DNA of 12,517 nt from Chloroflexota bacterium (GTDB taxonomy: Bacteria > Chloroflexota > Dehalococcoidia > GIF9 > AB-539-J10). The notes beneath the pieces were generated by a model. The model was not told the DNA's origin. It ran no database searches and saw nothing but the letters and a program-made list of their open reading frames with translations. Location: positions 1-12,517 of the forward strand of contig JADFUX010000051.1 in assembly GCA_015222255.1 (NCBI GenBank), in the 5' to 3' direction. Below, in pieces: positions 1 to 12,255 of the stretch (the stretch's first letter is position 1; every line of letters starts with the position of its first letter). A program made the translations under genes and the position numbers.

Positions 1-228
1 AAGATTCCTGAGGGTGAGGTGTATGTGCGTAATGAAATTGCCAGAGGCGAAGCAGGCATTTACATGAGGGCTACCGGGGGAGGAGAACCGTACAGGGTTA
101 AAGTAAGAGGTCCTGATTTTCTACATATGATACCCGTCCTCGAGCACTTGCTGGTAGGTTGTGAAATAGCGGATATACCGGCCATCTACTGGAGTCTAAA
201 TATTTGCCCCGCGGACATGGATAGGTGA
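1..228 (+). CDS. NuoD-like / group 4 hydrogenase large-subunit-like protein, C-terminal part (5' end outside window)
   Basis: The frame is open from base 1 to the TGA at 226-228 and gives the last 75 residues of a NuoD / hydrogenase large-subunit family protein. The tail aligns well with the complete large subunit at 2970-4226: GE-x-RGE, a conserved IADIP/IADVP block, then SLNICPADMDR against SIDPCMSCTNR. In this alignment only the first of the two C-terminal NiFe cysteines is kept; the second is Asp. The protein ends at the Arg where hydrogenase precursors are cut, so it has no cleavable tail. In this family that pattern is typical of members that no longer hold NiFe, such as NuoD and Mbx-type proteins. 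Its N-terminal CxxC motif is outside the window, so loss of the metal site is inferred from one end only. A Shine-Dalgarno-like AGGTGA overlapping its stop serves the next gene, so the two are co-transcribed. Confidence 0.85.
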   Translation, partial: KIPEGEVYVRNEIARGEAGIYMRATGGGEPYRVKVRGPDFLHMIPVLEHLLVGCEIADIPAIYWSLNICPADMDR

Positions 229-234
229 CGTACA

Positions 235-621
235 ATGGGCATGGTGCAAACAATCGTAGTACTATTTGAGAATTTATTCTCGAGGCCAATGACGGTCAAA
301 TTTCCCTACGATGCTATTGAAATCCCTGAGGGCTATCGGGGAGAACATGAGCTCGATATTGATAGATGTGTAAGTTGTAATCTTTGCGCTGAGATATGCC
401 CCAACAACGCTATAGAAATGGTGGAGATGCCTGAAGAGTATAAGCAGAAATATCCCAAGACTTATCCTCGAATCGACCTCAGAAAGTGTTGTTTTTGTGC
501 CCTTTGTCAGGACATATGCCCCAGAAAATGTTTGACGATGACGAAAAACGTCTTTCTTGCCACCCCCGATCCTTCCGCAGTGATTAGGAATCCCGTGCCC
601 AAAGAAGAAGGAGCAGGATGA
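235..621 (+). CDS. NuoI/MbhN-like 2x[4Fe-4S] ferredoxin-type subunit (first copy)
   Basis: A 128-residue electron-transfer subunit with two CxxCxxCxxxCP motifs (C45, C48, C51, C55 and C85, C88, C91, C95). It is the NuoI / MbhN / HycF type that passes electrons from a ferredoxin-side input to the catalytic core at the cytoplasmic membrane face. Extra cysteines occur at C86 and C99. The N-terminal segment, residues 1-25, is the amphipathic stretch usual in NuoI-like proteins for docking on the membrane arm. The start at 235 is preceded by AGGTGA at 224-229; a second ATG lies at 241. The 3' end overlaps the NuoH-like gene by four bases (ATGA), which implies translational coupling. It precedes the NuoH gene, the reverse of the order in the second set (4207-5632). 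Confidence 0.92.
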   Translation: MGMVQTIVVLFENLFSRPMTVKFPYDAIEIPEGYRGEHELDIDRCVSCNLCAEICPNNAIEMVEMPEEYKQKYPKTYPRIDLRKCCFCALCQDICPRKCLTMTKNVFLATPDPSAVIRNPVPKEEGAG

Positions 622-1619
622 TCATTACCTCTGGAGCCATTTTAGGAGCAGTCGTAGGAACTATAGGGCTTAGTTTTTTTGGCATTTTCTGCGGTCTGTT
701 ATACAAAGGCTTTGATAGGAAAATCGCTGCTCATATGCAAAGCAGGACAGGTCCACCGGTAATACAGCCCTTCTTAGATGTAAGCAAGTTCATGATTAAA
801 GATACAGTTCAGCCTGAGAGAGCCCTGACTTGGCTTTACAATGCCGCGCCAATCATATGTCTTGCTTCCATGATTACCGTCCTTCTCTACCTGCCCTTCG
901 GGGGCCTGCCCTTCACTCCCATACTCTCTGGATATGGAGACCTTATCTTGCTGGTATATCTGCTCATCATTCCCGCCTTGGTTATGATTGTTGGAGGATT
1001 TGCTTCTTCTTCTCCCTTTGCCACAGTTGGAGGGCAACGAAAGATGATAACCATGATGTCATACGAGTTTCCCTTGGCTGTGGTTGCAATCGCAATCGCT
1101 TGGAAGCTAAACGCACTTTACCCAGGCGAAAGCGTTTTTGGCCTCGCTTTTATATACTCACATCCGCTCTGGGGTAGCGTGGGCCCTTTGGGCATAATAG
1201 GCCTGCTCTTACTCCTTTTCTCCTTAGTTATAGTTACTCCAGGTCAATTAGCCACGGTGCCTTTTGACGTTTGTGAGGCTGGCCCCGAAATTGCCGAAGG
1301 TGTGGCAACTGAGTATTCAGGCCGGAATTTCGGTCTTTTCTACCTCGCTGATGCCGTAAAGACAATCGCAGTGGGCACCCTGATGATCGCCTTATTCTTT
1401 CCGTATGATCTCTCGCCACTTATTGGTATAAGTGGCCCTGCTGGCCACATTGTGAATTTCCTGTTCTTTTTGCTAAAGTTATTCCTGGTTGTGATACTAA
1501 CAGTAACCCTACCTAGAGTAGCAGTAGCTAGGCTAAAGATATCTCAAGTTACTACCACCTATTGGGGCATCGTAACTGGTATAGCCGTGCTTGGCTTGAT
1601 ATTCATTGTCATAGGATAG
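618..1619 (+). CDS. NuoH/MbhM-like membrane subunit (first copy)
   Basis: A 333-residue polytopic membrane protein of the NuoH / HycD / EchB / MbhM family, the subunit that joins the peripheral electron-transfer arm to the ion-pumping membrane arm. It has about eight hydrophobic helices and the family signatures DRKIAAHMQSRTGPP, SYEFPLA, PFDVCEAGPEIAEG and EYSGRNFGLFYLAD. It is closely related to the second copy at 4207-5226: 32 of 52 residues match over its residues 31-82. In the acidic motif, usually EA(E/D)xE, it has Gly222 in the middle, while the second copy keeps Glu224. It also has KD where the second copy and most relatives have KE. The ATG at 618 lies inside the ferredoxin stop (ATGA). 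The next gene starts after a 40-bp gap. Confidence 0.92.
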   Translation: MIITSGAILGAVVGTIGLSFFGIFCGLLYKGFDRKIAAHMQSRTGPPVIQPFLDVSKFMIKDTVQPERALTWLYNAAPIICLASMITVLLYLPFGGLPFTPILSGYGDLILLVYLLIIPALVMIVGGFASSSPFATVGGQRKMITMMSYEFPLAVVAIAIAWKLNALYPGESVFGLAFIYSHPLWGSVGPLGIIGLLLLLFSLVIVTPGQLATVPFDVCEAGPEIAEGVATEYSGRNFGLFYLADAVKTIAVGTLMIALFFPYDLSPLIGISGPAGHIVNFLFFLLKLFLVVILTVTLPRVAVARLKISQVTTTYWGIVTGIAVLGLIFIVIG

Positions 1620-1659
1620 CAGGGCAGGACACATCAGCGGACTTGCAGGAGAATCGTAA

Positions 1660-1992
1660 ATGCTAGGTCTTCCTTATTGGAATCCTCTTATTTGGATCTT
1701 TGTGTTCATAATTGCGTTGGCTTTGGCCTACTATTTCAGGAGTCGGGGGCAGAAGAAATACAAGAAAGGGACTGCTCAAACGGAGATCTTCCTAAGTGGT
1801 GAAGCACCTCCTGAAGCAGAGGAAAGACATGTAAAAGCCCACAACATATACTGGGGGTTTTTTGAGACCCTCAAAGGATACTACAAGGAAAACATGAGAG
1901 CACACACAGGAATAGTAAATGATTATGTTATCTGGTTTGTGGCTCTTATTGCTCTAACAGCAGTGATACTTTTCGTTGTAGGACTGTTATGA
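1660..1992 (+). CDS. Small two-helix membrane protein, probably MbhI-like hydrogenase subunit
   Basis: A 110-residue protein with one hydrophobic helix near the N terminus (about residues 10-26), a charged central part rich in Lys, Glu and His (27-85), and a second helix at the C terminus (about 89-110). The segment before helix 2 reads HTGIVNDYVIWF. No metal ligands or signal peptide are seen. It sits directly before the small subunit, the position of mbhI in archaeal Mbh operons. MbhI is a small bridging membrane subunit, so an MbhI-like role between the hydrogenase and pump modules is inferred from size, topology and place; I cannot confirm it by alignment. The ATG is preceded by a good AGGAG at 1647-1651. 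The stop is 10 bases before the next ATG. Confidence 0.75.
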   Translation: MLGLPYWNPLIWIFVFIIALALAYYFRSRGQKKYKKGTAQTEIFLSGEAPPEAEERHVKAHNIYWGFFETLKGYYKENMRAHTGIVNDYVIWFVALIALTAVILFVVGLL

Positions 1993-2002
1993 AAGGAGAC
2001 AT

Positions 2003-2437
2003 ATGAGCCTTAGTTCATTTAGAAGAGCGCTGTGGGCCTACCATATGAATACCGGATCGTGCAACGGATGCGATATTGAGATCCTGGCCATACTAACGCC
2101 CAGGTATGATGTTGAGCGCTTTGGGATCATGCTTGTGGGTTCACCGCGCCATGCTGATGTGTTGCTGGTGACGGGTCCAGTAACCAGGCAAATGGCTTCC
2201 AGGGTCAAGCGTGTATATGAACAGGTACCTGACCCCAAGATGGTCATCGTAGTCGGTAGCTGCGGCATAGAAGGGGGTGTATTCCATGAATCCTACAATT
2301 TGGTGGGACCGGTAGACCAGATTATACCAGTGGATGTTTATGTTCCCGGGTGTCCTCCCAGACCTGAAGCCATTATAGAGGGAGTGGCCAAGGCATGGGT
2401 AAAGCTGGAGCAAGCTGAGAAGCAGGGGGCAATATAA
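2003..2437 (+). CDS. Group 4 [NiFe] hydrogenase small subunit (NuoB/MbhJ/EchC/HycG-like)
   Basis: A 144-residue NuoB-family protein carrying the proximal [4Fe-4S] cluster next to the active site. Cluster ligands are visible as C20 and C23 in TGSCNGCDIE, C87 in GSCGIEGG and C117 in PGCPPRPE. The block LTPRYDVERFG followed by GSPRHADVLLVTGPVT is characteristic of group 4 hydrogenases and complex I. It is short, with no Tat signal and no extra C-terminal cluster domain, as expected for a cytoplasm-facing group 4 enzyme and unlike group 1-3 small subunits. An AAAGGAG sequence lies just ahead of the ATG. The stop directly abuts the GTG start of the NuoC-like gene. With the large subunit at 2970 it forms the catalytic core. 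No second NuoB-like gene is in the window; one for the upstream set may lie to the left. Confidence 0.95.
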   Translation: MSLSSFRRALWAYHMNTGSCNGCDIEILAILTPRYDVERFGIMLVGSPRHADVLLVTGPVTRQMASRVKRVYEQVPDPKMVIVVGSCGIEGGVFHESYNLVGPVDQIIPVDVYVPGCPPRPEAIIEGVAKAWVKLEQAEKQGAI

Positions 2438-2983
2438 GTGGAAATGCTGAGTCCGAAAGCAATAGTTGACAGCTTTAAGACTGCTCTGGGAGATAGCTTA
2501 ATCGATTCAAGGATCTATGAAAGAGAAGTGGCAGTCAAAAGGAATCTCTTCAGAACAATCTGGATACATGTCAAGAGAGAGGCATTTAGAAACGCAGTAG
2601 AACATATTGGCACACTCCAGGAATATCCCCATTTGGCTATAATCTCATGCGCTGATCTTGGCGATGATGTTGAGTTAATATATCACTTCACAATATATTA
2701 CGGGCACCACCTTCAAGAGTTATCGTTGGGGTTACGCGTCACCTTGGCCAAGAATGACCTGAGGATACCAACAATTACAGATATCATACCCGGTGCGTTA
2801 TTCACCGAACGTGAGATTCAGGAGATGATGGGGGTGGAAGTAATCGGTATCCCAGATAAGAGACGTTTGTTCTTGCCTGACGATTTTCCGGACGGTGTTT
2901 ACCCCTGGAGAACAGATGAGACGGGACCGCAGGACCTGCTTAGAGTCCTGCCAGGGAGGCAGAAGGAATATGGCAATGGATGA
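2438..2983 (+). CDS. NuoC/MbhK/EchD-like hydrogenase subunit (complex I 30 kDa family)
   Basis: A 181-residue protein of the complex I 30-kDa family, a structural subunit that packs against the large subunit and has no cofactor of its own. The family block is clear in the C-terminal half: PTITDIIPGALFTEREIQEM, then MGVEVIGIPDKRRLFLPDD and PWRTDE. The start is taken as GTG 2438, immediately after the previous stop. GGGGG at 2425-2429 gives better spacing to GTG 2438 than to the in-frame ATG at 2444, so either start is possible. The 3' end overlaps the large-subunit gene by 14 bases. The C-terminal tail, from about residue 160, is polar and not conserved. Confidence 0.93.
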   Translation: MEMLSPKAIVDSFKTALGDSLIDSRIYEREVAVKRNLFRTIWIHVKREAFRNAVEHIGTLQEYPHLAIISCADLGDDVELIYHFTIYYGHHLQELSLGLRVTLAKNDLRIPTITDIIPGALFTEREIQEMMGVEVIGIPDKRRLFLPDDFPDGVYPWRTDETGPQDLLRVLPGRQKEYGNG

Positions 2984-4226
2984 GACAAAGACAAGATACA
3001 CTATACCTGTAGGGCCCATTCATCCCGCGCTGAAGGAGCCGATTCGGCTAGACCTTGAGGTTGATGGTGAGGAGATTGTGGATGTAGACGTAATTGTGGG
3101 GCAGGTCCACCGAGGCATGGAATGGCTTGGTATGAATAGAAATAACCCCATCCAGAACATATATCTGTCTGAACGGGTATGTGGCATCTGCAATATATGT
3201 CATCCCTTCGCATATATCATGGCCGTCGAGCAGGCTGCTGGAATCACTCCCCCCGAACGCGCAGAATATATAAGGGTGATTGTGGCGGAAATGGAGCGAA
3301 TACACTCTCATCTCTTATGGGCAGGCGTTGCGGCTCACGAGATTGGCTTCGACACCGTGTTTTACCTTGTGTGGCGTGTAAGAGAAGAAATAATGGATTT
3401 GATGGAATATGTCACGGGAAACCGCGTCACGAAGGCCATGTTCCAGATTGGCGGGGTGAGAAGAGATATCACCGAAGAACAATTCCCCAGGGTTAGACAA
3501 TCTCTGGACTACTACAAGAGCATATTCAACCAGTTGAAAACCGTGTTTTTGGACGATTGGACGATCAGGATGCGTACAAGGAATGTAGGTATCCTGAAAA
3601 CCGAGGACGCTTTGAAACTGCTTACAGTCGGACCAACTGGTAGAGCGAGCGGCGTACCCAAGGACGTAAGACAAGACCAGCCCTATAGCGCCTATGCCGA
3701 TTTAGATGTGAAAGCGATTACCCCAGACATGCTCACCGGGACTGTAGTCGGCGATGTGTACGACAGAATCATCGTTCGGTTACTGGAGGTTAAGCAGTCG
3801 ATCGAAATCATCGAGCAGTGTCTAAATGAAATGCCACCCGGCCCCATAGTTGCTGAGGGGAAGACAGCAAAGCTGCTGAACACACTGACCAAAGCGGAAG
3901 GTGAAGGCGTGGGGCGAGCCGAAGCACCTAGAGGTGAAGTTATACACTATGTTCGTCTGGAAGCGGGGAGGGAGACCTTGTCCAACTGGAAGATAAGGGC
4001 GCCCACATACACGAACCTGATGGCGGTACCGATAATGCTAAAGGGCGGGCAGATTGCCGATGTACCCATTGCCTTTGCCTCTATTGACCCCTGCATGTCA
4101 TGCACCAACAGAGCGATTGTCGTCGACCTCAAAGCGAATAAGAAGTCTTTGCTTACCGGCGAGGAATTGCACAAGCTCTCCGTTCAGAAAACAAGGAACT
4201 TGAAGCGTGATGAATCTACTAGGTGA
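2970..4226 (+). CDS. Group 4 [NiFe] hydrogenase large (catalytic) subunit precursor, NuoD/MbhL/HycE-like
   Basis: A 418-residue catalytic subunit for reversible proton reduction / H2 oxidation. All four NiFe cysteines are present: C71 and C74 in ERVCGICNICH near the N terminus, and C375 and C378 in DPCMSCTNR at the C terminus. This separates it from NuoD, which has lost them. After Arg381 comes a 37-residue tail starting AIVVDLK, which resembles the HycE tail removed by HycI after NiFe insertion; a HycI-type protease gene lies nearby at 5680. The frame is open back to 2895, but ATG 2970 is preferred because GGGAGG (2954-2959) and AAGGA (2963-2967) precede it and the protein then begins at the usual family N terminus. 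ATG 2976 is an alternative. It overlaps the NuoC-like gene and the following NuoH-like gene, so assembly is probably translation-coupled. Confidence 0.95.
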   Translation: MAMDETKTRYTIPVGPIHPALKEPIRLDLEVDGEEIVDVDVIVGQVHRGMEWLGMNRNNPIQNIYLSERVCGICNICHPFAYIMAVEQAAGITPPERAEYIRVIVAEMERIHSHLLWAGVAAHEIGFDTVFYLVWRVREEIMDLMEYVTGNRVTKAMFQIGGVRRDITEEQFPRVRQSLDYYKSIFNQLKTVFLDDWTIRMRTRNVGILKTEDALKLLTVGPTGRASGVPKDVRQDQPYSAYADLDVKAITPDMLTGTVVGDVYDRIIVRLLEVKQSIEIIEQCLNEMPPGPIVAEGKTAKLLNTLTKAEGEGVGRAEAPRGEVIHYVRLEAGRETLSNWKIRAPTYTNLMAVPIMLKGGQIADVPIAFASIDPCMSCTNRAIVVDLKANKKSLLTGEELHKLSVQKTRNLKRDESTR

Positions 4227-5226
4227 TAGCGCCTGGTTGAGCATTCTGGTCATAATCGCCGGCTCGATCGTAGTTGCCGTGCTCGGGGCAGTCTTTGCTT
4301 TGTTATTCCGGGGTGTAGATCGCAAACTGGTTGCTCATATGCAGGGTAGAATAGGCCCTCCAATAATCCAGCCTTTCCGTGATCTCCGTAAGCTACTTAT
4401 CAAGGAGACTATTGTACCTGATGGTGCCGTTTCTTGGCTCTTCAATGCTGCCCCGATTGTCTGCCTAGTGGTGACAATCGTGCTGCTTCTTTATATACCC
4501 CTGTTCGGGCAGAACGCACTTCTGGATGGCTATGGCGACGCCATACTAATACTATACCTGTTGGTCGTACCATCTCTAGCATTTGTGGCAGGTGGGTTCG
4601 CGTCGAGTTCACCGTATGCCACTGTGGGTGCACAGCGTGAAATGGTTATCATGATGAGCTACGAGTTCACCCTGGCGTTAGTGATAGTCGCCATTGCTTG
4701 GCGCATCGTTCCCATGACTGATGCTGATCCCTTCATGTTATCCACGGTTGCTGCATATCCTGTATGGAACTTGGTGGGCCCACTAGGAGTAGTCGGGGCA
4801 CTGGTTCTGCTCTTTGCTTTGCTGACGGTTACGCCCGGAGAAGTCTCTAAGGTGCCTTTTGACATAGCCGAAGCTGAAACGGAGATTGCCGGAGGAATAT
4901 TGGTGGAATATTCCGGCAGAAATCTAGCTTTGTTCTACCTCTCAGATGCGATGAAAGCTTTTGTGATGGTATCTCTAATAGTCGCTCTATTCTTCCCATA
5001 CAACCTCTCTCCTGTGATTGGAATTAGCGCTGCTATCCCCGCAGCTATAGTTGATGGCCTGTTTTTCCTCCTGAAAGTCTTCGTGATAATGTTTGTTAGC
5101 GTGATACTAGTACGCACTGCCATGGCGCGGTTTAAGATCAGTCAGGCAAGCTATGTCTACTTGATAGCAATGACACTCATAAGTCTTGTGGGGTTGATAT
5201 TGCTAGGGCTGGACTTGAGAGTGTGA
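4207..5226 (+). CDS. NuoH/MbhM-like membrane subunit (second copy)
   Basis: A 339-residue membrane protein of the NuoH / MbhM / HycD family, the anchor between the hydrogenase arm and ion-translocating subunits. It shows about eight hydrophobic helices and the signatures GVDRKLVAHMQGRIGPP, SYEFTLAL, PFDIAEAETEIAGG and EYSGRNLALFYLSD. Unlike the first copy at 618-1619 it keeps the full acidic EAExE motif (with Glu224) and KE in the first cytoplasmic loop. It may start at GTG 4207 or ATG 4210; AAGGA at 4193-4197 is better spaced for 4207. It overlaps the end of the large-subunit gene by 17-20 bases. It is followed after 10 bases by the second ferredoxin-type subunit, matching the L-M-N order of Mbh-type operons. 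Confidence 0.94.
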   Translation: MMNLLGDSAWLSILVIIAGSIVVAVLGAVFALLFRGVDRKLVAHMQGRIGPPIIQPFRDLRKLLIKETIVPDGAVSWLFNAAPIVCLVVTIVLLLYIPLFGQNALLDGYGDAILILYLLVVPSLAFVAGGFASSSPYATVGAQREMVIMMSYEFTLALVIVAIAWRIVPMTDADPFMLSTVAAYPVWNLVGPLGVVGALVLLFALLTVTPGEVSKVPFDIAEAETEIAGGILVEYSGRNLALFYLSDAMKAFVMVSLIVALFFPYNLSPVIGISAAIPAAIVDGLFFLLKVFVIMFVSVILVRTAMARFKISQASYVYLIAMTLISLVGLILLGLDLRV

Positions 5227-5654: not shown

Positions 5655-5695
5655 GCCTCTGAATTTCAGTCTCAAATGCTCATGGTTCCAGAGGC
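5655..5695. terminator. Possible weak stem-loop between convergent genes
   Basis: GCCTCTG at 5655-5661 is complementary to CAGAGGC at 5689-5695, followed on the + strand by TTTAT. The 27-nt loop is long and the right arm lies inside the 3' end of the protease gene, so it could end the hydrogenase transcript only weakly. It may be chance. Confidence 0.25.
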
Positions 5696-6201
5696 TTTAT
5701 CTCAGTCAACCGTTTCTCTATTATCAGATCGGCAACGTGATCTCCCCCATTCTTGACAACGCGGGATAATGCCGTGCCGAAATCCATCCTATGGGGTTGG
5801 ATTCCTATAAGCACCACCTCCTTACAGAACTCGCTTACGTAAGAGATAAGAACAGACAGTGGTATGTTGTGTGTTGATACATGCATAACGCCTATCTTCT
5901 CTGGTGGGATAGTTCTATATGACCCCGGTTCTAAGCCCATGTCAGCCGCGTCCACTAATATCAGTCTATCAGGCTTACGTTTTCTAATGATTGAGGTGAA
6001 ATTCTCCGGAGTCGTGCCACAATCTATGGCAACAACCTTTCCAATTCCCATGGGTTTGGCTTGTACCTGCTCCTCTTCAGCGTCTCGGAGCTGTTCACTG
6101 ATTCTTTCTGCAACGTAACTGCCAATTCCATCGTCCCCATTCAATGTGTTTCCTATGCCAAGGATTACCTCTTTCACGTCTTGTCTATCAGCATAAAGCA
6201 T
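5680..6201 (-). CDS. hycI: HycI-type hydrogenase maturation protease
   Basis: An endopeptidase of the HycI/HybD/HyaD family, which trims the C-terminal tail of [NiFe] hydrogenase large subunits after nickel insertion. Three metal-contact segments are visible in order: GIGNTLNGDDGIG, LILVDAADMG and the His in STHNIPLS, matching the Glu/Asp, Asp and His nickel-sensing residues of HybD. A charged stretch (DAEEEQVQAKPMG) after the first helix appears to be an insertion relative to HycI. The C-terminal half, with VVLIGIQPHRMDFG, fits the HycI branch. The start is uncertain: ATG 6201 gives 173 residues and the usual short lead before GIGN; ATG 6243 (187 residues) and TTG 6249 are in frame but add an unconserved leader. 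No start has a strong Shine-Dalgarno. Its target is presumably the large subunit at 2970-4226. Confidence 0.9.
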   Translation of the reverse strand: MLYADRQDVKEVILGIGNTLNGDDGIGSYVAERISEQLRDAEEEQVQAKPMGIGKVVAIDCGTTPENFTSIIRKRKPDRLILVDAADMGLEPGSYRTIPPEKIGVMHVSTHNIPLSVLISYVSEFCKEVVLIGIQPHRMDFGTALSRVVKNGGDHVADLIIEKRLTEIKPLEP

Positions 6202-6338
6202 GGACTTCACACAAATCAAATCTCCCAAACGTCCCAGGGACATGCCCAAAGGGTAAAGCTTCCACGCGCAGGGCCAAGCCTCCGCTTTTGCTCATGACTT
6301 CTGCAGTGATTCCACTCAAATTATGGCCGCGCTATAGA

Positions 6339-6471: not shown

Positions 6472-6481
6472 TGCCTTGCCT

Positions 6482-7294
6482 GTGAAACGATTTGGCATCT
6501 TGTATCATCCAGGGTTGGAAGAAGCGCGCGATCTAGCTGGGAAGCTGGGAGATTGGTTATCTGCTCAAGGGGTCAACTCATGGCAATGCTCAGCTTGGGA
6601 TGAGGACAAGGCTAAAGCTCAAGTGGCTGGCTCAGATTTGATCCTCAGCATTGGCGGTGATGGCACTATCCTCCATGTTGTACGGATCATAACTCCGTTA
6701 GCCGTGCCCATCTTGGGGATAAACCTGGGGCGACTGGGATTCATCACCGATTTAAAGGCTGACGAGGCTCTATCGCAATTGCCCCGGTTGCTTGATAGCG
6801 GAGGTTGGATCGAGGAGAGAGCCATGCTTCAAGCTGAGCTTCAGGAAAGAAGCTTCCATGCCTTGAACGACGTGGTAGTGCGAAGTACCGCTGTTCGCTT
6901 GGTTAACTTAGAGGTAAGGATTGATGGCGAGGTACTGACTACCTATCGGGCTGACGGCGTTATTGTTGCCACAGCTACAGGCAGCACCGCCTATTCGCTG
7001 GCATCTGGAGGGCCGATTCTTAACCCTCAATCCAAAGAATTTATCCTCCAGCCAATATCCTGCCACCTCGGCTTAAGTCATCCCCTGGTCTTACCTCCAA
7101 AAAGCACAGTCAGTTTAAGGCTCGTCAATGATGATAAGGCTATCCTTAGCATCGATGGGCAGGCGGAGTTGCCCTTATCCAACAAACAAGATGTTGACGT
7201 AAAACTCAGCCCCTATTTGGCGCGCTTCTTGAGGCTCAACCAGCCGACTTATTTCTACGGCTCACTGTGGCAGAAATTGAGAGGGAAAGCGTAA
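6482..7294 (+). CDS. nadK: NAD kinase (ATP/polyphosphate-NAD kinase)
   Basis: About 270 residues, the usual NAD kinase length. It phosphorylates NAD+ at the 2'-OH of its adenosine ribose to make NADP+ in the cytoplasm. The family motifs are all present: SIGGDGTILH near residues 56-65 (the GGDGT nucleotide-binding loop), GINLGRLGFITDL, a NDVVVRS block, and ATATGSTAYSLASGGP (the NAD-binding glycine-rich loop). The C-terminal part continues with SHPLVLPPKSTV and SIDGQ, the typical second domain. GTG 6482 is chosen; TTG 6476 would add two residues, and neither has a clear Shine-Dalgarno. It is the first gene of a three-gene operon; the next ATG follows its stop after one base. Confidence 0.95.
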   Translation: MKRFGILYHPGLEEARDLAGKLGDWLSAQGVNSWQCSAWDEDKAKAQVAGSDLILSIGGDGTILHVVRIITPLAVPILGINLGRLGFITDLKADEALSQLPRLLDSGGWIEERAMLQAELQERSFHALNDVVVRSTAVRLVNLEVRIDGEVLTTYRADGVIVATATGSTAYSLASGGPILNPQSKEFILQPISCHLGLSHPLVLPPKSTVSLRLVNDDKAILSIDGQAELPLSNKQDVDVKLSPYLARFLRLNQPTYFYGSLWQKLRGKA

Positions 7295-7295
7295 T

Positions 7296-7760
7296 ATGGT
7301 GGTTGGCATAAAAGTTGACAGGGCAAAGGTAAAGGATGCCGCCTTAATGCAGCAGCTAATTAACTGGTTCGCTGGTCAAGGCGAGATGCTGCCCCGTGCC
7401 TTAAGCGAGATATATGAAGATATTAGAGATTTCTTTGTAGCTAGGGACGGGGACAAAGTCATCGCTTGCACCGCTCTGCACGTCAGCTGGCTTGATTTGG
7501 CTGAAATCAGATCCTTGGCTGTGGGTGAAAAGAGCCAGAATCAAGGAATTGGTTCTTCGCTTGTTCAGGCTTGTCTCAATGAAGCTAGGGAGTTGGGCAT
7601 CCCCAGTGTTTTTTGCCTCACTCGTAGACCAGCTTTCTTCGAGAAGCATGGCTTTCGTTTGATTGATAAAATGGAATTGCCCCATAAAGTGTGGGCGGAG
7701 TGTTATCGCTGCCCCAAGTTTCCTAATTGCGACGAGGTGGCCCTAATTTGCCACCTTTAG
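7296..7760 (+). CDS. GNAT-family N-acetyltransferase, short ArgA-like, with cysteine-rich C terminus
   Basis: A 154-residue GNAT acetyltransferase. The acetyl-CoA pyrophosphate loop is SQNQGIGSSLVQA (Q-x-x-G-x-G type), preceded by the strand LAEIRSLAVG and followed by VFCLTRRPAFFEKHGF. The N-terminal block with LSEIYEDIRDFFVA and VIACTALHVSWLDLAEIR resembles the short N-acetylglutamate synthases (ArgA-type, single GNAT domain) of actinobacteria and others, which would place it in arginine biosynthesis. That assignment is from pattern memory. The C terminus has a cysteine cluster, ECYRCPKFPNCDE, and a late Cys that could bind metal. The ATG follows a good GAGAGGGAAAG. It is almost contiguous with nadK, implying co-expression, although no other arginine genes are nearby. 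Confidence 0.85.
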   Translation: MVVGIKVDRAKVKDAALMQQLINWFAGQGEMLPRALSEIYEDIRDFFVARDGDKVIACTALHVSWLDLAEIRSLAVGEKSQNQGIGSSLVQACLNEARELGIPSVFCLTRRPAFFEKHGFRLIDKMELPHKVWAECYRCPKFPNCDEVALICHL

Positions 7761-7769
7761 GAGCTGATC

Positions 7770-8312
7770 TTGCGTCCGGAGAGACTTCTATCTAGCCAAG
7801 AGATTTGCCATGGTCGTGCGGTAAATTTGCGCGTGGACCACGTGGAGAAGCCTGGTGGTAGAAGAACTACCAGGGAAATTGTGGAACATAGTGATTGTGT
7901 AGCTGTAGTGGCCATTGATGATCAAGACAACGTACTTTTGGTTCGCCAGTTTCGTCACCCGGTAGGGAAGTTCCTACTCGAAATACCCGCCGGTGGCATT
8001 GAGCCTGGTGAGGACCCCGTCGACTGCGCCCGCCGCGAATTGCAGGAGGAAATCGGCTATTTGCCCCAGAAAATAGACGACCTCGGCGGCTTTTATACCA
8101 TCCCAGGCTACGGCACTGAATACTTGCATTGCTATCTAGCCAGCAACCTCGTGCTCAGTCGCCTTGTTGCTGAGGACACTGACGACATTGAGCTAGTGCG
8201 AGTCCCTCGCGCCCAGATACCCCAGCTTATCGCTTCAGGTGAGATCTGCGATGCTAAGAGCATTGCCGCCTTGCTCACGTTCAACTTACTGCAGCGAGAG
8301 AAATACAGCTAA
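7770..8312 (+). CDS. Nudix hydrolase, ADP-ribose pyrophosphatase type
   Basis: A 180-residue Nudix protein. The Nudix box (G-x5-E-x7-REUxEExGU) is intact: GGIEPGEDPVDCARREL followed by QEEIGY, about residues 76-98. The preceding VLLVRQFRHPVGKFLLEIPAG and the later YTIPGYGTEYLHCYLAS are typical of ADP-ribose pyrophosphatases, which split ADP-ribose into AMP and ribose 5-phosphate using Mg2+. The start is TTG 7770, supported by AGGAG at 7759-7763 six bases upstream; no ATG or GTG fits as well. The Shine-Dalgarno overlaps the stop of the acetyltransferase gene, so it is the third gene of the nadK operon. Association with NAD kinase fits a role in NAD-derivative turnover, an inference. Confidence 0.93.
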   Translation: MRPERLLSSQEICHGRAVNLRVDHVEKPGGRRTTREIVEHSDCVAVVAIDDQDNVLLVRQFRHPVGKFLLEIPAGGIEPGEDPVDCARRELQEEIGYLPQKIDDLGGFYTIPGYGTEYLHCYLASNLVLSRLVAEDTDDIELVRVPRAQIPQLIASGEICDAKSIAALLTFNLLQREKYS

Positions 8313-8333
8313 GCCAGATCTGCAATCAACCGG

Positions 8334-8361
8334 ACACTTCTTGTAATCCTCAGCGAAGTGT
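8334..8361. terminator. Possible stem-loop between convergent genes
   Basis: ACACTTC (8334-8340) and GAAGTGT (8355-8361) form a 7-bp stem with a 14-nt loop just past the end of the Nudix gene and at the 3' end of the facing DUF3795-like frame. There is no T-run on either side, so termination activity is doubtful. Confidence 0.25.
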
Positions 8362-8688
8362 GTCGCGTTCTCCTTCAAGCAGCAGGATGCCGGGAGAGAC
8401 GTTAGCTATTAAGATAAGACCTGAGAGTGCTACATTCACAGAACTTCCCCATTTCTTGTCAATCCGATGTTTCACACCTAGTTGGGCTGTTCCCCAACCC
8501 CTTCTAGAGTATCTTTCACAGGGATATTCTTCACATTCGGCGCAGGTAATGAATCCTTTCTTCATCACGCAGCAGCGGTAGATGCTACACCACGAATGCT
8601 GCTCACCCAACCGGCAGCCGATACACCTGCTAGCCCCGCGTAGAGCACCGGAACCTGGTCTTACTCTGCCGCTTTGGCGAATTTTGCT
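8350..8688 (-). pseudogene. DUF3795-like cysteine-rich protein, N-terminally truncated remnant
   Basis: The frame shows the cysteine spacing of the second half of DUF3795 proteins: CIGCR, then WCSIYRCC, ITCAECEEYPCERY and a GWG...HRI segment. The family's usual first half (a CGxYC...C pattern) is missing. The conserved CIGCR block lies upstream of the only start codon (TTG 8610, giving 86 residues), in frame that is open back to a stop at 8689-8691 but has no start. The frame also overlaps the end of the membrane-protein gene at 8661-9014. This looks like a decayed or truncated gene; a short functional protein from TTG 8610 is possible. The function of the family is unknown; the cysteines suggest metal binding. 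The C-terminal 35 residues are hydrophobic and not clearly family-like. Confidence 0.5.
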
Positions 8689-9014
8689 TCATGGAGCACC
8701 CATAACACTCCCGCCACCAACATCGGCAACGGGTAGACCAGGAATGTCCCTAGAAGATCCATCGGCCTACCTATGAGCCTTATGGTAAAGAGTATCCCGG
8801 TAATAACGCCTCCCGCAATCAACCACCAGCCACCAATCCGCTCATGCCTCCAGGCCACAGCAGTGCCAGCAATCATCGAGATCGGACCCAATAGCAACAG
8901 CACGCAGTCTTGAGGGTTTGGGTTGCCTCCAAGCCCCTCACCGATGGCGAAGATCACAAACAGTACCCCGAAGGCAATGCCTATTCCCGTGGCAGTATAG
9001 CGCATCCAGTTCAC
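8661..9014 (-). CDS. Small four-helix integral membrane protein, function unknown
   Basis: A 117-residue protein with four hydrophobic segments: about residues 9-27, 37-55, 61-82 and 89-107. A short polar loop with PNPQDC follows helix 1, and WRHERIGGWWLIAGG links helices 2 and 3. Similar small proteins are common hypothetical membrane proteins in bacteria; I cannot assign a function. The start is GTG 9014, preceded by AAGGAAGG eight bases upstream; ATG 9005 is in frame but poorly spaced. A TATAAT box on the minus strand (9040 to 9035) lies only about 14 bases before the leader end, so the message has a very short leader. The 3' end overlaps the DUF3795-like remnant. Confidence 0.7.
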   Translation of the reverse strand: MNWMRYTATGIGIAFGVLFVIFAIGEGLGGNPNPQDCVLLLLGPISMIAGTAVAWRHERIGGWWLIAGGVITGILFTIRLIGRPMDLLGTFLVYPLPMLVAGVLWVLHEAKFAKAAE

Positions 9015-9034
9015 GAGGATGACCTTCCTTGCGC

Positions 9035-9040
9035 ATTATA
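9035..9040 (-). promoter_or_regulatory. TATAAT -10 box for the small membrane protein gene
   Basis: A perfect TATAAT on the minus strand, 20 bases before GTG 9014. The predicted start of transcription near 9028 leaves a 14-base leader that holds AAGGAAGG. No convincing -35 box is seen at 16-18 bases. Confidence 0.45.
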
Positions 9041-9122
9041 TGCCAATTTGCCTATTTCTTCTTCATAGGATATCAAGGGTTAGGCAGAGTATCTTGAGGA
9101 CAGGACATCCAGCCGGTGTGGT

Positions 9123-9147
9123 CAGGTAAAGCCTGGGGCAAAGCCCC
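9123..9147. other. Two adjacent small hairpins in the 9015-9251 gap
   Basis: CAGG-TAAAG-CCTG (9123-9135) and GGGGC-AAA-GCCCC (9135-9147) lie side by side downstream of the minus-strand COG2426 gene. They could cap its transcript but have no U-run. The rest of 9041-9251 shows no gene. Confidence 0.3.
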
Positions 9148-9251
9148 CAATGTAAGCCGCAACAGCAAACGAGGTTTGGTTCTTCCACATTAGATTGAAT
9201 ATGATAGCCGGTCGGTAGAGATTCTACAGGCGGACCTTACCCGAACCTGAC

Positions 9252-9785
9252 CTATCTTCTCCACCAGCCAAGAACAGCTAGAGTGCCAAGCCCAACGCCG
9301 GCAATCACTGCTCCGACCCAACCAAGCAGACACAAGCTGGTGACAATTGCACCCGCAATGATGACTCCTACAAGGATAGATAGGAAAGCATACCTGAATT
9401 TTAAGCCCAGCAGGAAGGCGCCGATTGACCCAGTCCAAGCGCCGGTTACGGGAAGTGGGACGGCTACAAATAGCGTCAAGCCGATTTTCTCATATCTTTC
9501 GATCCTCTTTCCCTGCCGCCTGGTACGCTCAAAGACCCAGTCGACCGCCTTCCGACCTGTCTCTGTACGACTAACAACCCTGGCCAACGAGTCTAAGAAA
9601 AGCAACAGGATGGGCACAGGCAGCATGTTGCCGATGACAGCCAGGCAGTAAGCCTTATACCAGGGCATATCAAACACGTTTATAGCTATGGGCAAGGCTA
9701 GTCGAAGTTCCACCACAGGCAAAGCCGATATGATAACGATTATCGCCTCCTGAGAAATGCCCCAACCAAGCAGTTCTTCGATCAT
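9252..9785 (-). CDS. COG2426 / Sm_multidrug_ex family membrane protein
   Basis: A 177-residue membrane protein of the family labelled 'small multi-drug export' (Pfam Sm_multidrug_ex). The N-terminal signature is IISALPVVELRLALPIAI, with the conserved P-x-x-ELR-x-x-P motif of the family. PWYKAYCLAVIGNMLPVPI and FVAVPLPVTGAWTGSIGAFLLG follow; these are the usual conserved helix-loop blocks. About five membrane segments are visible, with a basic cytoplasmic stretch (TRRQGKRIERYEK) in the middle. Despite the family name, transport of drugs is not established for most members, so the substrate is unknown. ATG 9785 has no Shine-Dalgarno, and an extended -10 box ends only 15 bases upstream, so the mRNA may be leaderless or nearly so. 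Confidence 0.88.
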   Translation of the reverse strand: MIEELLGWGISQEAIIVIISALPVVELRLALPIAINVFDMPWYKAYCLAVIGNMLPVPILLLFLDSLARVVSRTETGRKAVDWVFERTRRQGKRIERYEKIGLTLFVAVPLPVTGAWTGSIGAFLLGLKFRYAFLSILVGVIIAGAIVTSLCLLGWVGAVIAGVGLGTLAVLGWWRR

Positions 9786-9799
9786 AGCTTTGGCTAGCC

Positions 9800-9808
9800 A
9801 TTATACCA
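9800..9808 (-). promoter_or_regulatory. Extended -10 promoter (TGGTATAAT) close to the COG2426 start codon
   Basis: On the minus strand TGG-TATAAT reads from 9808 to 9800, a perfect extended -10 element. Transcription would start near 9793, eight bases before ATG 9785. No -35 box is evident, which an extended -10 tolerates. Confidence 0.5.
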
Positions 9809-10184
9809 TCTAAGCGTTGCGTGCCTAGGTGATTTACCTCGTGGTACTCAATTGTTCCAGTTGGCGCACTAGACTCTGGCGAAGCAACTCAAGGTTACAG
9901 AACCGAATGCGAAGAACCCACGGCTTCGGTGTAGCATCTTCGGCAAGGACGAAACAGCGACAAAGCAGACGCTGGACCTCCGCGGTAAAGAAACTCGGAG
10001 CTAAGTGCCTGTAGAAACAGAGCGTCTTCTTTGCGACCTGACCTTTTTTCAGAGCTCTCTCACCTGAATTCGTGAACCAAATACCGAAGGCGCAGCTGAA
10101 TACACTCGTTTAGGTCATCACCCACAAGGCAAACCTCCGGAATCTCGACTCGGGAATTGAGCTTCCAACAGAAACCTTGACGTG
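9809..10184. other. Gap without an intact gene; possible decayed minus-strand coding frames
   Basis: No start-to-stop gene of convincing quality is present here. On the minus strand two frames read like protein. One, about 10180 to a TGA at 10060-10062, contains VEIPEVCLVGDDLNE and ends YLVHEFR. The other, from a TAA at 10110-10112 to a TAA at 9834-9836, is open for 91 codons and contains FYRHLAPSFFTAEVQRLL and LELLRQSLVRQLEQL, but has no usable start codon near its beginning. The two overlap around 10062-10109, as would a gene broken by one frameshift. I recognise no family. The + strand frame at 9829-10014 has no protein-like character. Confidence 0.25.
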
Positions 10185-10206
10185 ACCTGCCTTCCCCATC
10201 GATATG

Positions 10207-10215
10207 TGGTATAAT
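10207..10215 (+). promoter_or_regulatory. gyrB promoter P1, extended -10 (TGGTATAAT)
   Basis: A perfect extended -10 element in repeat unit 1; transcription would start near 10222, giving a leader of about 110 bases to gyrB. The -35 region at a 17-bp spacing is CTGCCT, a weak match. Confidence 0.55.
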
Positions 10216-10260
10216 GTGTGGTGAGTTGCAGCTACGCTACCTGCCTTGCCCATCAATATG

Positions 10261-10269
10261 TGGTATAAT
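10261..10269 (+). promoter_or_regulatory. gyrB promoter P2, extended -10 (TGGTATAAT)
   Basis: The same perfect extended -10 element in repeat unit 2; transcription would start near 10276, giving a leader of about 57 bases. The -35 position again holds CTGCCT, as expected from the duplication. Confidence 0.55.
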
Positions 10270-10332
10270 ATATGGTAAGTTGTAGTTGCGTCACCTCCTA
10301 GGCAATCCACACTACAAGGAGACCGATTAACT

Positions 10333-12255
10333 GTGGCACAAGCTGAGCTAAACCCTGGACTGAACACAGAGTATACTGCCGAACATATTCAGATTCTCGA
10401 TGAAATCGAAGCTGTCCGCTTACGGCCCGGCATGTACATTGGCAGCACTGACCACCGTGGCCTCCACCACCTCATCTATGAGATAGTCTATAACAGCATA
10501 GACGAGGCCATGGCCGGCTTCTGTGATCAAGTCGACGTGACAATCCATAGCGACAATACTATCACTGTTACCGACAACGGGCGAGGTATTCCTGTAGAGA
10601 CGATCCCGACAATGGATATCACGGCCTTGGAAGCAGTGATGACCCGCTTACATGCTGGAGCCAAGTTTGGTGGATTCATCTACACGATATCCAGCGGCTT
10701 GCACGGCGTAGGCGCTTCAGTGGTGAACGCTCTGTCATCCTGGCTGAAAGTTGACGTTGCACGCCAGGGAAAGCTCCATCGTCAAGAATATCAGCGGGGA
10801 ATTCCCAGAGGACCTGTAGAAATCATCGGAGACACCGACCCCACAGGCACTTCCACTACTTTCCTCGCCGACGAGGCAATCTTCGGCAAATTGCATTACG
10901 ATTTCGATGCCGTTTGTCAGAGGTTAAGAGAACTAGCCTATCTCAACAGAGGAGTGCAGATAACTATCAAAGACGAGAGGAGTGACACAGAGAAAGCTTA
11001 CTATTTCGAGGGAGGAATAGCCAGTTTTGTACGCCGCATAAATAGAAACAAGACAGTGCTTTACAGCTATCCTATATACATATCAACTATGGTTAACTCC
11101 ACCATAATCGAGGCGGCGTTACAGTACAATAGTGGCTTTGCTGAGTCCACCTTCAGCTTTGCTAATTGCGTCAATACTGCCGATGGAGGCAGTCACCTCA
11201 CCGGTTTCAGGTCAGCATTAACGCGGACCCTTAACGACTATGCTCGAAATAGCAAACTCATCAAGGATACCGACCCCAATCTGACAGGCGAGGATGTTCG
11301 TGAAGGCCTAGCTTGCGCCATTAGTGTGAAACTAACTCAGCCTCAATTTGAGGGGCAAACCAAAGCGAAGCTGGGCAATCCCGAAGTGAAGAGCCAGGTT
11401 GAAATCGCCGTAGCTAATGGTATGTCCCTTTACCTGGAACAACACCCAGAAGAAGCAAGAGTAATCATAGGGAAATGCCTAACCACCGCCAAAGCCAGAG
11501 AAGCAGCCCGCAAAGCTCGTGACCTAATCCTGAAGAAAAACACTTTTGAAGCAGCAACATTGCCAGGCAAACTGGCCGACTGCGCAGAGAAGAACCCCAG
11601 CTTGTGCGAGCTTTACTTGGTTGAAGGTGACTCCGCTGGCGGCTCAGCTAAACAGGGGCGGGATCGCCGCTTCCAGGCCATCCTCCCATTACGCGGCAAG
11701 ATACTCAACGTCGAGAAGGCTCCCAAAGACAAGATTATGGCCTATGAGGAAATACGCGCTATAGTTACGGCGCTTAGGGTAAATAGCTATGAGTCACCTG
11801 ACCTATCGAAATTGCGCTATCATCGGATAATCATTATGACCGACGCCGACGTTGATGGTTCCCACATTCGTACCCTGCTTCTTACATTCTTCTACCGCTA
11901 TCTGGTAGAAATGATTAGCCACGGACACCTTTTCATCGCCCAACCACCCCTTTATCGAATTCAGGCAGGGAAGAAAAGGTTCTGGATTTACTCCGAACAG
12001 GAAAAGGAAAGCAAGCTCAGGGAATTGGAAGGAACCAAGGTGGAGGTTCAACGCTATAAAGGTCTAGGAGAGATGAGCCCTGAGCAATTATGGGAAACAA
12101 CTATGAATCCTGCTACAAGAACTCTGCTTGAAGTAGAAGTAGAGGACGCCATGGCAGCAGATCAAATTTTCCATACGCTTATGGGGGGCGAGGTTTTACC
12201 CAGGCGAAAGTTCATCCAAGCCCACGCTTTGAGCGTGAAAAATCTTGATATTTGA
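10333..12255 (+). CDS. gyrB: DNA gyrase subunit B
   Basis: A 640-residue type IIA topoisomerase ATPase subunit that, with GyrA, adds negative supercoils to DNA. The domains are in order: GHKL ATPase with [10 protein letters not shown], the catalytic Glu50 and Asn54 in [18 protein letters not shown], and the ATP-lid [13 protein letters not shown]; a transducer domain ending at [19 protein letters not shown] with [23 protein letters not shown] and [12 protein letters not shown]; and the C-terminal QRYKGLGEM block ending in VKNLDI. The length fits the short GyrB form without the proteobacterial insertion. The start is GTG 10333 with AAGGAG at 10316-10321. A ParE assignment is less likely given the ending and sequence style. 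It is convergent with nadD, 11 bases away. Confidence 0.96.

Follow-up and report, generated by a model that had tools for sequence, protein, structure and literature searches.

A Dehalococcoidia hydrogenase operon with a second redox head resembling that of sulfane reductase

Introduction

The described systems closest to the locus reported here are the membrane-bound hydrogenase (MBH) of Pyrococcus furiosus (6cfw), which we take to be the 'group 4d' enzyme, the membrane-bound sulfane reductase of the same organism (MBS, also called Mbx; 6u8y) and the energy-converting hydrogenase-related (Ehr) complexes. According to the accessible parts of the MBS paper (PMC7684303), the large subunit MbsL keeps C85 and C385, one Cys per CxxC motif, and the proposed sulfur-reducing site is the proximal cluster, which has three Cys and one open iron. 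Catalysis needs neither MbsJ C25 nor MbsL C85/C385. The reaction is worth ~41 kJ/mol per 2 e- at standard state; the paper does not settle how differing amounts of redox energy are coupled to the pumping of one, two or four protons, and proposes adding or inactivating a pump in MBS.

The DNA analysed here (the window, 12,517 nucleotides) is the whole of contig JADFUX010000051.1 (G000:C12; base 1 is the contig start) from an 827-kb, 62%-complete metagenome-assembled genome (MAG) of a Chloroflexota bacterium of the class Dehalococcoidia (GCA_015222255.1). It carries a complete [NiFe] hydrogenase head, directly preceded by the end of a second, MBS-like core. Gene content, gene order, ancestry, cysteine patterns, a mosaic exchange and selection, observed in the window and in two related MAGs (G007 and G396), point to a reading that we put at a probability of about 0.43, namely that two alternative acceptor heads, one for protons and one for sulfane sulfur or a disulfide, serve one antiporter module.

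Results

Two redox heads in one gene row

The plus strand of the window reads D1 tail, I1, H1, MbhI, B2, C2, D2, H2 and I2, and HycI follows on the minus strand:

1..228, + strand: D1, last 75 residues of an MBS-like large subunit homologous to MbsL/NuoD, with Cys-x-x-Asp at the C-terminal CxxC and without a cleavable tail; the rest lies beyond the contig
235..621, + strand: I1, NuoI/MbsN-like, with eight cysteines predicted to bind two [4Fe-4S] clusters
618..1619, + strand: H1, NuoH/MbhM-type membrane anchor of core 1, MBH-type by tree, with EAG for EAE in the loop between transmembrane helices (TMH) 5 and 6
1660..1992, + strand: MbhI, linker subunit of the hydrogenase head (NF053600, 121 bits, cut-off 95)
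2003..2437, + strand: B2, NuoB/MbhJ, with four cluster cysteines (CxxC type)
2438..2983, + strand: C2, NuoC/MbhK
2970..4226, + strand: D2, MbhL, the [NiFe] large subunit, with C71/C74/C375/C378, E23 (equivalent to MbhL E21) and a C-terminal extension after CTNR
4207..5226, + strand: H2, NuoH/MbhM anchor of the hydrogenase head, with an EAE loop
5237..5632, + strand: I2, NuoI/MbhN, two [4Fe-4S] clusters (NF006221, 155 bits, cut-off 124)
5680..6249, - strand: HycI-type hydrogenase maturation protease, which should remove the D2 C-terminal tail (TIGR00142, 138 bits, cut-off 119)

The D1 frame (1-228, 75 amino acids) ends in SLNICPADMDR before the stop codon. Both D1 and D2 match PF00346 (66.7 and 230.9 bits, cut-off 24), and D2 matches PF00374 as well. 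The full row is seen in G007 (L022/L037) and G396 (L038), where it runs MbhH, I' (an additional MbhI-like linker), B1, C1, D1, I1, H1, MbhI, B2, C2, D2, H2, I2, HycI; neither of these loci nor the window has genes in the row beyond those named. MbhA-H lies beyond the contig in the window. In L038 it is present upstream as E, F and G types, two small D/E-like genes, and B, C and D types of Mrp gene, the D/E-like and C-type matches scoring below the model cut-offs. In G007 it spans two contig ends: contig C113 finishes with the Mrp genes, and its final bases code for 41 N-terminal MbhH residues that are 98% identical to the MbhH start on C111; the two contigs therefore adjoin. H1 and the MbhI of head 2 are separated by 40 bp in the window, by 66 in L037 and by 67 in L038. 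Promoter and terminator matches in the window number 10 and 7, compared with 9.7 and 5.1 in shuffled sequences, and the H1-MbhI gap contains none.

The original prediction, made from the window alone, that a hydrogenase core adjoins a non-hydrogenase paralogous core is borne out, and it had rightly named the Mbx (MBS) type among the candidates. The partner genes that it expected upstream, B1, C1 and the Mrp genes, are located in G007 and G396.

Core 1 resembles the redox head of sulfane reductase

D1 of the window is 87% identical to that of G007 across its 75 residues and displays the C-terminal motif only, in which the second cysteine is Asp (NICPADMDR), as the original prediction had noted. 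The N-terminal motif, which it placed upstream of the window, is not an intact CxxC: in G007 it reads VCILE, the first Cys being retained and the second replaced by Glu, and in an alignment of 16 homologues (out of 120 listed) and two translations C85/E88 and C381/D384 are invariant (18/18). Judged by its relatives, the window D1 is taken to have lost two of the four NiFe cysteines, one per motif. MBS has two of the four in the same places (C..E and CPxDxDR), and it likewise has a small subunit with three conserved cluster cysteines and a shortened loop, and a two-cluster NuoI.

The MBS structure is the top PDB match of both core 1 proteins examined from G007. D1 scores 329.6 bits against MbsL (6u8y_L), 256.5 against Nqo4 and 164.4 against MbhL, and B1 scores 134.3 bits against 6u8y_J. 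In 13/13 B1 sequences Cys residues occupy the places of MbsJ C28, C93 and C123, there is none at C25 and the loop is shortened, as judged from sequence only; this set leaves out L046, whose contig lacks B1, and the window, whose B1 is beyond the contig. In a quick tree of 43 large subunits, all of >300 aa, D1 forms a clade (15 rows, SH-aLRT 99) that is sister to four MBS-type large subunits (99 for the 19 rows jointly) and stands apart from NuoD and MBH. B1 likewise forms a single clade (15 rows, 99), and the B1 and MBS small subunits are split from those of MBH and Nuo by a branch of 95. Of the two kinships originally suggested for the paralogue, that to Mbx is upheld, MBS being the closest solved relative of D1, and that to NuoD is not. 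Assignment of D1 as a complex I NuoD was rejected: the order's two NuoD-type rows branch elsewhere, quinone residues are absent and two Cys are retained. In pairwise alignments read by eye D1 has Ser and Ile at the positions of Nqo4 H38 and Y87, and no equivalent of MbhL E21. As far as protein sequences can tell, the cysteine pattern of D1 and B1 is the signature of the sulfane reductase MBS.

A different acceptor for head 1 has to be weighed here. It may be an Ehr oxidoreductase that uses NAD(P)+ via a partner, or a quinone, a view that can be combined with sharing of the arm. The accessible account of Ehr complexes (PMC6349859) describes them as lacking NiFe ligands and as having diverse proposed partners, and free-standing B-C-D-I clusters with varied neighbours are found, including one (L045) beside MvhD/FlpD-type and ferredoxin-like proteins. 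The Ser and Ile at the Nqo4 H38 and Y87 positions speak against such an acceptor, as do the MBS three-cysteine pattern retained in B1 and the lack of any additional gene in the row of L037, L038 and the window. We consider the Ehr view unlikely, albeit a serious contender.

Core 1 is built on hydrogenase-type membrane parts

The membrane parts of core 1 do not follow MBS. I' of G007 matches the MbhI model NF053600 (104.5 bits, cut-off 95) and, among solved structures, only MbhI; on the same model L038 scores 99.3, L039 99.8 and the Altiarchaeal L041 94.3, just below the cut-off. H1 falls inside the MBH anchors, with MbsM left outside (17 rows, 96), and in a tree without MbsM its sister is an MBH-linked Thermoplasmata anchor (94/91). 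The TMH5-6 loop, one of three loops that bound the catalytic chamber in the accessible structural accounts, reads EA[GST] in 7/7 head-1 anchors and EAE in 25/25 MBH-linked anchors (truncated L122 being excluded), and two MbsM proteins likewise lack the loop Glu. The seven head-1 anchors as one clade are not rejected (p-AU, from the approximately unbiased test, 0.154), and loss of the loop Glu in them may therefore be one event; two independent losses were considered and set aside on this ground.

Core 1 thus has neither the second pump, MbsH', in place of which there are an MbhI-type linker and a single MbhH, nor an MbsM-type anchor. It also differs from MBS in its order, B-C-D-I-H compared with M-J-K-L-N (as in L114), and in an operon that holds an MBH head as well. 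The order I'-[BCDI]-H in core 1, against I-[BCD]-H-I in MBH, agrees with a chimera. Core 1 is, by these comparisons, a chimera of an MBS-like redox head and a one-pump MBH-type arm, in which MBH membrane parts would have acquired a soluble MBS-like B-C-D-I cassette. With MbhI as its linker in place of MbsH', head 1 would drive a single pump, compared with two in P. furiosus MBS.

Purifying selection acts on the head-1 genes (omega 0.06-0.18, estimated by simple counting, dS up to 1.65). This range, the invariant signature residues and the recurrence of the arrangement in three MAGs (the window, JAFGBN010000071 and JAUWGZ010000016) make it highly improbable that head 1 is a decaying duplicate or that its junction with the hydrogenase is an assembly artefact, even though the window contig begins inside D1 and all three double-head genomes are MAGs.

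Core 2 is an ordinary hydrogenase head

Core 2, MbhI-B2-C2-D2-H2-I2 with HycI, is predicted to be a complete, ordinary H2-evolving head of the MBH type. The D2 open reading frame (2970-4226, 418 aa from the ATG at 2970) contains ASIDPCMSCTNR, followed by a 37-residue tail after CTNR, and its top solved match is MbhL (6cfw_L, 390 bits). The four NiFe cysteines of the original prediction are confirmed, C71, C74, C375 and C378 being invariant in seven aligned MBH large subunits. The E21 equivalent (E23), the C-terminal tail and HycI are also all present, and D2 groups with MBH in the large-subunit tree. Head 2 resembles P. furiosus MBH in its MbhI-J-K-L-M-N order, its four Cys, the adjoining HycI and, in the relatives, an Mrp-type MbhA-H upstream. 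It is unlike that enzyme in that an MBS-like second head stands between MbhH and MbhI in two genomes; in the window the second head directly precedes MbhI, MbhH being beyond the contig.

Mosaic exchange in G396

In a concatenated tree the MBH proteins of G396, a member of genus g9, group with G007 (100/100) and not with three other g9 members, and g9 as a single clade is rejected (p-AU 0.001). This test was named by genus and run after inspection of the tree, with L137 and L138 (another group 4 type) and L047 left out; the MbhH tree comprises 17 rows from chosen loci. The G396 contig is itself g9, as the gene beside the operon, presumably ksgA, is 96% and 94% identical to its counterparts in two g9 genomes. 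In G289, also of g9, a plain MBH operon occupies the chromosomal position that the double-head operon has in G396. Misbinning of L038 was ruled out by the identity of the neighbouring gene together with flanks that match the g9 plain-MBH site.

Sliding identities place the switches in ancestry near residue 400 of 523 in MbhH and near residue 100 of 148 in I2; across MbhH residues 421-480, L136 of G012 matches as well as G007 does. The seven small Mrp genes of G396 and its HycI are nearest to g9 (84-92% for the Mrp proteins, 94% for HycI). Its MbhI, D2 and H2 are nearest to G007, at 88, 93 and 85% compared with at most 59, 82 and 67% in g9, and B2 discriminates poorly (89% to G007, 86% to g9). 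The simplest account of these identities is that one exchange of ~8 kb brought in both heads and that the resident Mrp set stayed. A single origin of the double head within the family is neither rejected (p-AU 0.218, with G001 included though its core 1 is unseen) nor supported.

One antiporter gene set for two heads

A search with MbhH returned a single full-length copy in each of G007 (92% complete) and G396 (80% complete). At 1e-5 these two genomes contain no other NuoLMN-like proteins, and none was found in the 62%-complete genome of the window. As the Mrp genes of G396 are nearest to those of g9 plain MBH operons, one of which occupies the same site in G289, the Mrp set of this genome belongs by descent to the MBH operon. 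On the simplest reading the two heads, which have separate MbhI linkers and anchors, take turns on one type of arm or compete for it.

In this mechanism the locus would be the 3' part of one long operon, in which MbhA-H, the Mrp-type antiporter module, is followed by two redox heads. Head 1 (I'-B1-C1-D1-I1-H1) would consist of an MBS-like B-C-D-I cassette on an MbhI-like linker and an MbhM-type anchor. Reduced ferredoxin would feed either head; head 2 would reduce protons at [NiFe], and head 1 would reduce polysulfide or another disulfide at the proximal [4Fe-4S] cluster, one iron of which lacks a Cys ligand. Each head would drive the same single-pump MbhA-H arm via its own MbhI, and the cell could switch its terminal electron acceptor while keeping one ion pump. 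Substrate, sharing, coupling and assembly are what we infer in this scheme. In its fullest form, which is tentative and rather less likely than not, the locus would encode an exchangeable-head respiratory complex, a natural 'one-pump MBS' in which one Mrp arm serves by turns a [NiFe] H2 head and a sulfane-reducing FeS head.

The original prediction allowed for two neighbouring complexes or one hybrid, a choice now narrowed to one Mrp gene set with two heads, each having an MbhI and a NuoH-type anchor. Two independent complexes with abutting genes, in which head 1 owns the Mrp set and the MBH head uses another module or none, would account for the separate MbhI and anchor of each head. Head 1 with one Mrp set occurs alone in Altiarchaeales (L041, L042 and L117) and in L039, and in L114 a complete MBS operon and a complete MBH operon lie next to each other in convergent orientation, both with Mrp genes of their own. 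The solitary full-length MbhH in G007 and in G396, and the closeness of the G396 Mrp genes to the plain MBH operons of its genus at the site shared with G289, are hard to reconcile with this arrangement, and we regard it as quite unlikely.

The other option, a physical hybrid complex of both cores, would carry both heads on one arm simultaneously; H2 oxidation at head 2 could then, for example, drive disulfide reduction at head 1. The single Mrp set, the two linkers and the common ancestry of both heads in G396 would fit such a hybrid, and in the MBS dimer the peripheral arm of one unit touches the membrane module of the other (PMC7684303). In MBH, as far as accessible structural descriptions go, one MbhI docks one head beside one MbhH. 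The row contains no gene for a subunit that would join the heads. We know of no second head-docking site on the MBH arm, and judge a simultaneous hybrid improbable.

Several observations weigh against two alternative heads on one module. A second Mrp set could have been missed in G007 (92%) or G396 (80%). The substrate of core 1 is inferred from homology to one characterised enzyme, and D1 is 42-45% identical to MBS-type large subunits. An additional B1 Cys lies three residues on in 3/13 sequences (L037, L038 and L044), including both readable double-head B1 proteins, and could act as a fourth ligand that closes the open iron site; other additional, non-conserved Cys residues occur in L047 (two residues on) and L040. 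The one pump of core 1 is itself a departure from MBS, and the diversity of Ehr partners noted above counts on the same side. As to the exchange, C2 of G396 is not diagnostic (80% to G007, 74-79% to g9), and head 1 of G396 is 83-95% identical to G007 with no g9 counterpart for comparison. The core 1 proteins of L039, which is labelled Desulfobacterales, are 64-82% identical to those of G007 or the window, and this core 1 may be a transfer or a binning error. Finally, the double head is seen in three genomes only, all of them MAGs, and the window lacks the Mrp genes and most of D1.

Both kinds of head are known, and there is precedent for MBH and MBS operons lying side by side on a chromosome. 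In the Thermococcales-like G484 (L114) the two enzyme types are also adjacent on the chromosome; unlike the present locus, each operon has its own Mrp genes and they lie on opposite strands. The MBH and MBS operons of P. furiosus are presumably adjacent in the same way. What is new is the chimeric one-pump MBS-like head and the operon that it has in common with MBH. Ehr complexes share a group 4-like composition and, with core 1, an incomplete NiFe site, although in the accessible parts of PMC6349859 they are stand-alone or form a proposed FDH-Ehr (formate dehydrogenase-Ehr) complex, and none is said to share an Mrp set with a hydrogenase head. The accessible parts of the open-access MBH, MBS/Mbx and Ehr literature (PMC7684303, PMC3035292, PMC6349859, PMC8415708, PMC10356935, PMC6759336), a scope outside which most subscription papers fall, describe no operon in which a single Mrp set precedes two heads.

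Evolution appears to have built the kind of construct proposed for MBS, combining an MBS-like head with a one-pump arm whose genes the neighbouring MBH head uses too. If a single arm does serve both heads, the coupling ratio of two chemistries would be comparable on one pump. Free-standing B-C-D-I clusters, found in several groups of archaea and bacteria, would correspond naturally to the purified C-MBS subcomplex. The locus also illustrates the modular exchange of redox heads and pump arms within the complex I superfamily.

Distribution of core 1

Full-length D1 is present in 3/52 family genomes (G007, G396 and G011), the window genome being a fourth, partial case, and three of these four (the window, G007 and G396) have the double head. 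Among 393 genomes sampled from the class, the sole D1-grade match is G396 (4e-235; the next is 5.8e-96), G007 and G011 lying outside the sample. The MbhH/MbhI junction is visible in 17 family MBH loci, and core 1 is present there in two and absent from 15. In G011 a soluble BCDI cluster adjoins HypD and HypF, and an ordinary MBH is encoded elsewhere. Co-conservation of the two sets, raised by the original prediction, is therefore partial: they are adjacent in three family genomes, the D1 N-terminal CxxC being broken, yet the pair is not obligatory and the sets are separable elsewhere.

In other phyla core 1 is also found without an adjoining MBH. The cassette accompanies Mrp genes and an MbhI-like linker in L037, L038, L039, L041, L042 and L117, and in L050, which is cut inside D1. 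No anchor gene follows B-C-D-I in L040, L043, L044, L045, L046, L048, L049 and L116, of which L044, L046 and L049 are cut on the B side and may have upstream Mrp genes. In L047 (Thermoplasmata) D-I-B-C lies directly upstream of an MBH operon. An MBH-type D2 is annotated in 9/17 D1-bearing genomes; in the other eight, which may be incomplete, the search gave either no D2 or a second match of lower score.

Individual loci add further detail. In G011 the soluble B-C-D-I cluster (L023:1-4492, L040) is flanked by the HypF and HypD genes; a general link of such clusters to hyp genes was rejected, as this is the one locus concerned and no hyp gene was found among those neighbours of the others that were inspected by eye or covered by a search. 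In a Thermoplasmata MAG (L045:4337-5691) the genes after a free-standing B-C-D-I cluster encode an MvhD/FlpD-domain protein and a ferredoxin-like protein, a hint that the soluble cassette may be tied to Hdr-type electron transfer. G428, the genome of L047, has another MBS-related C-D-I set (L126:8880-10963) whose D is 42% identical to D1, and G482 (L118) has a more divergent MBS-related set with a B-C fusion. In a Thermococci MAG (L043:320-1345) a pyridoxal phosphate (PLP)-dependent enzyme (PF00291) precedes the soluble B-C-D-I cluster; it resembles a D-cysteine desulfhydrase or ACC (1-aminocyclopropane-1-carboxylate) deaminase, a possible sulfur link of that cluster.

Downstream of the hydrogenase genes, window positions 6476-12255 encode ordinary functions: an NAD kinase, a GNAT acetyltransferase, a NUDIX hydrolase, a DUF7670 protein, a PF06695 (small multi-drug export) protein and a gyrase-type subunit B. 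The NAD kinase gene adjoins the MBH operon in G001, G006 and G027 as well.

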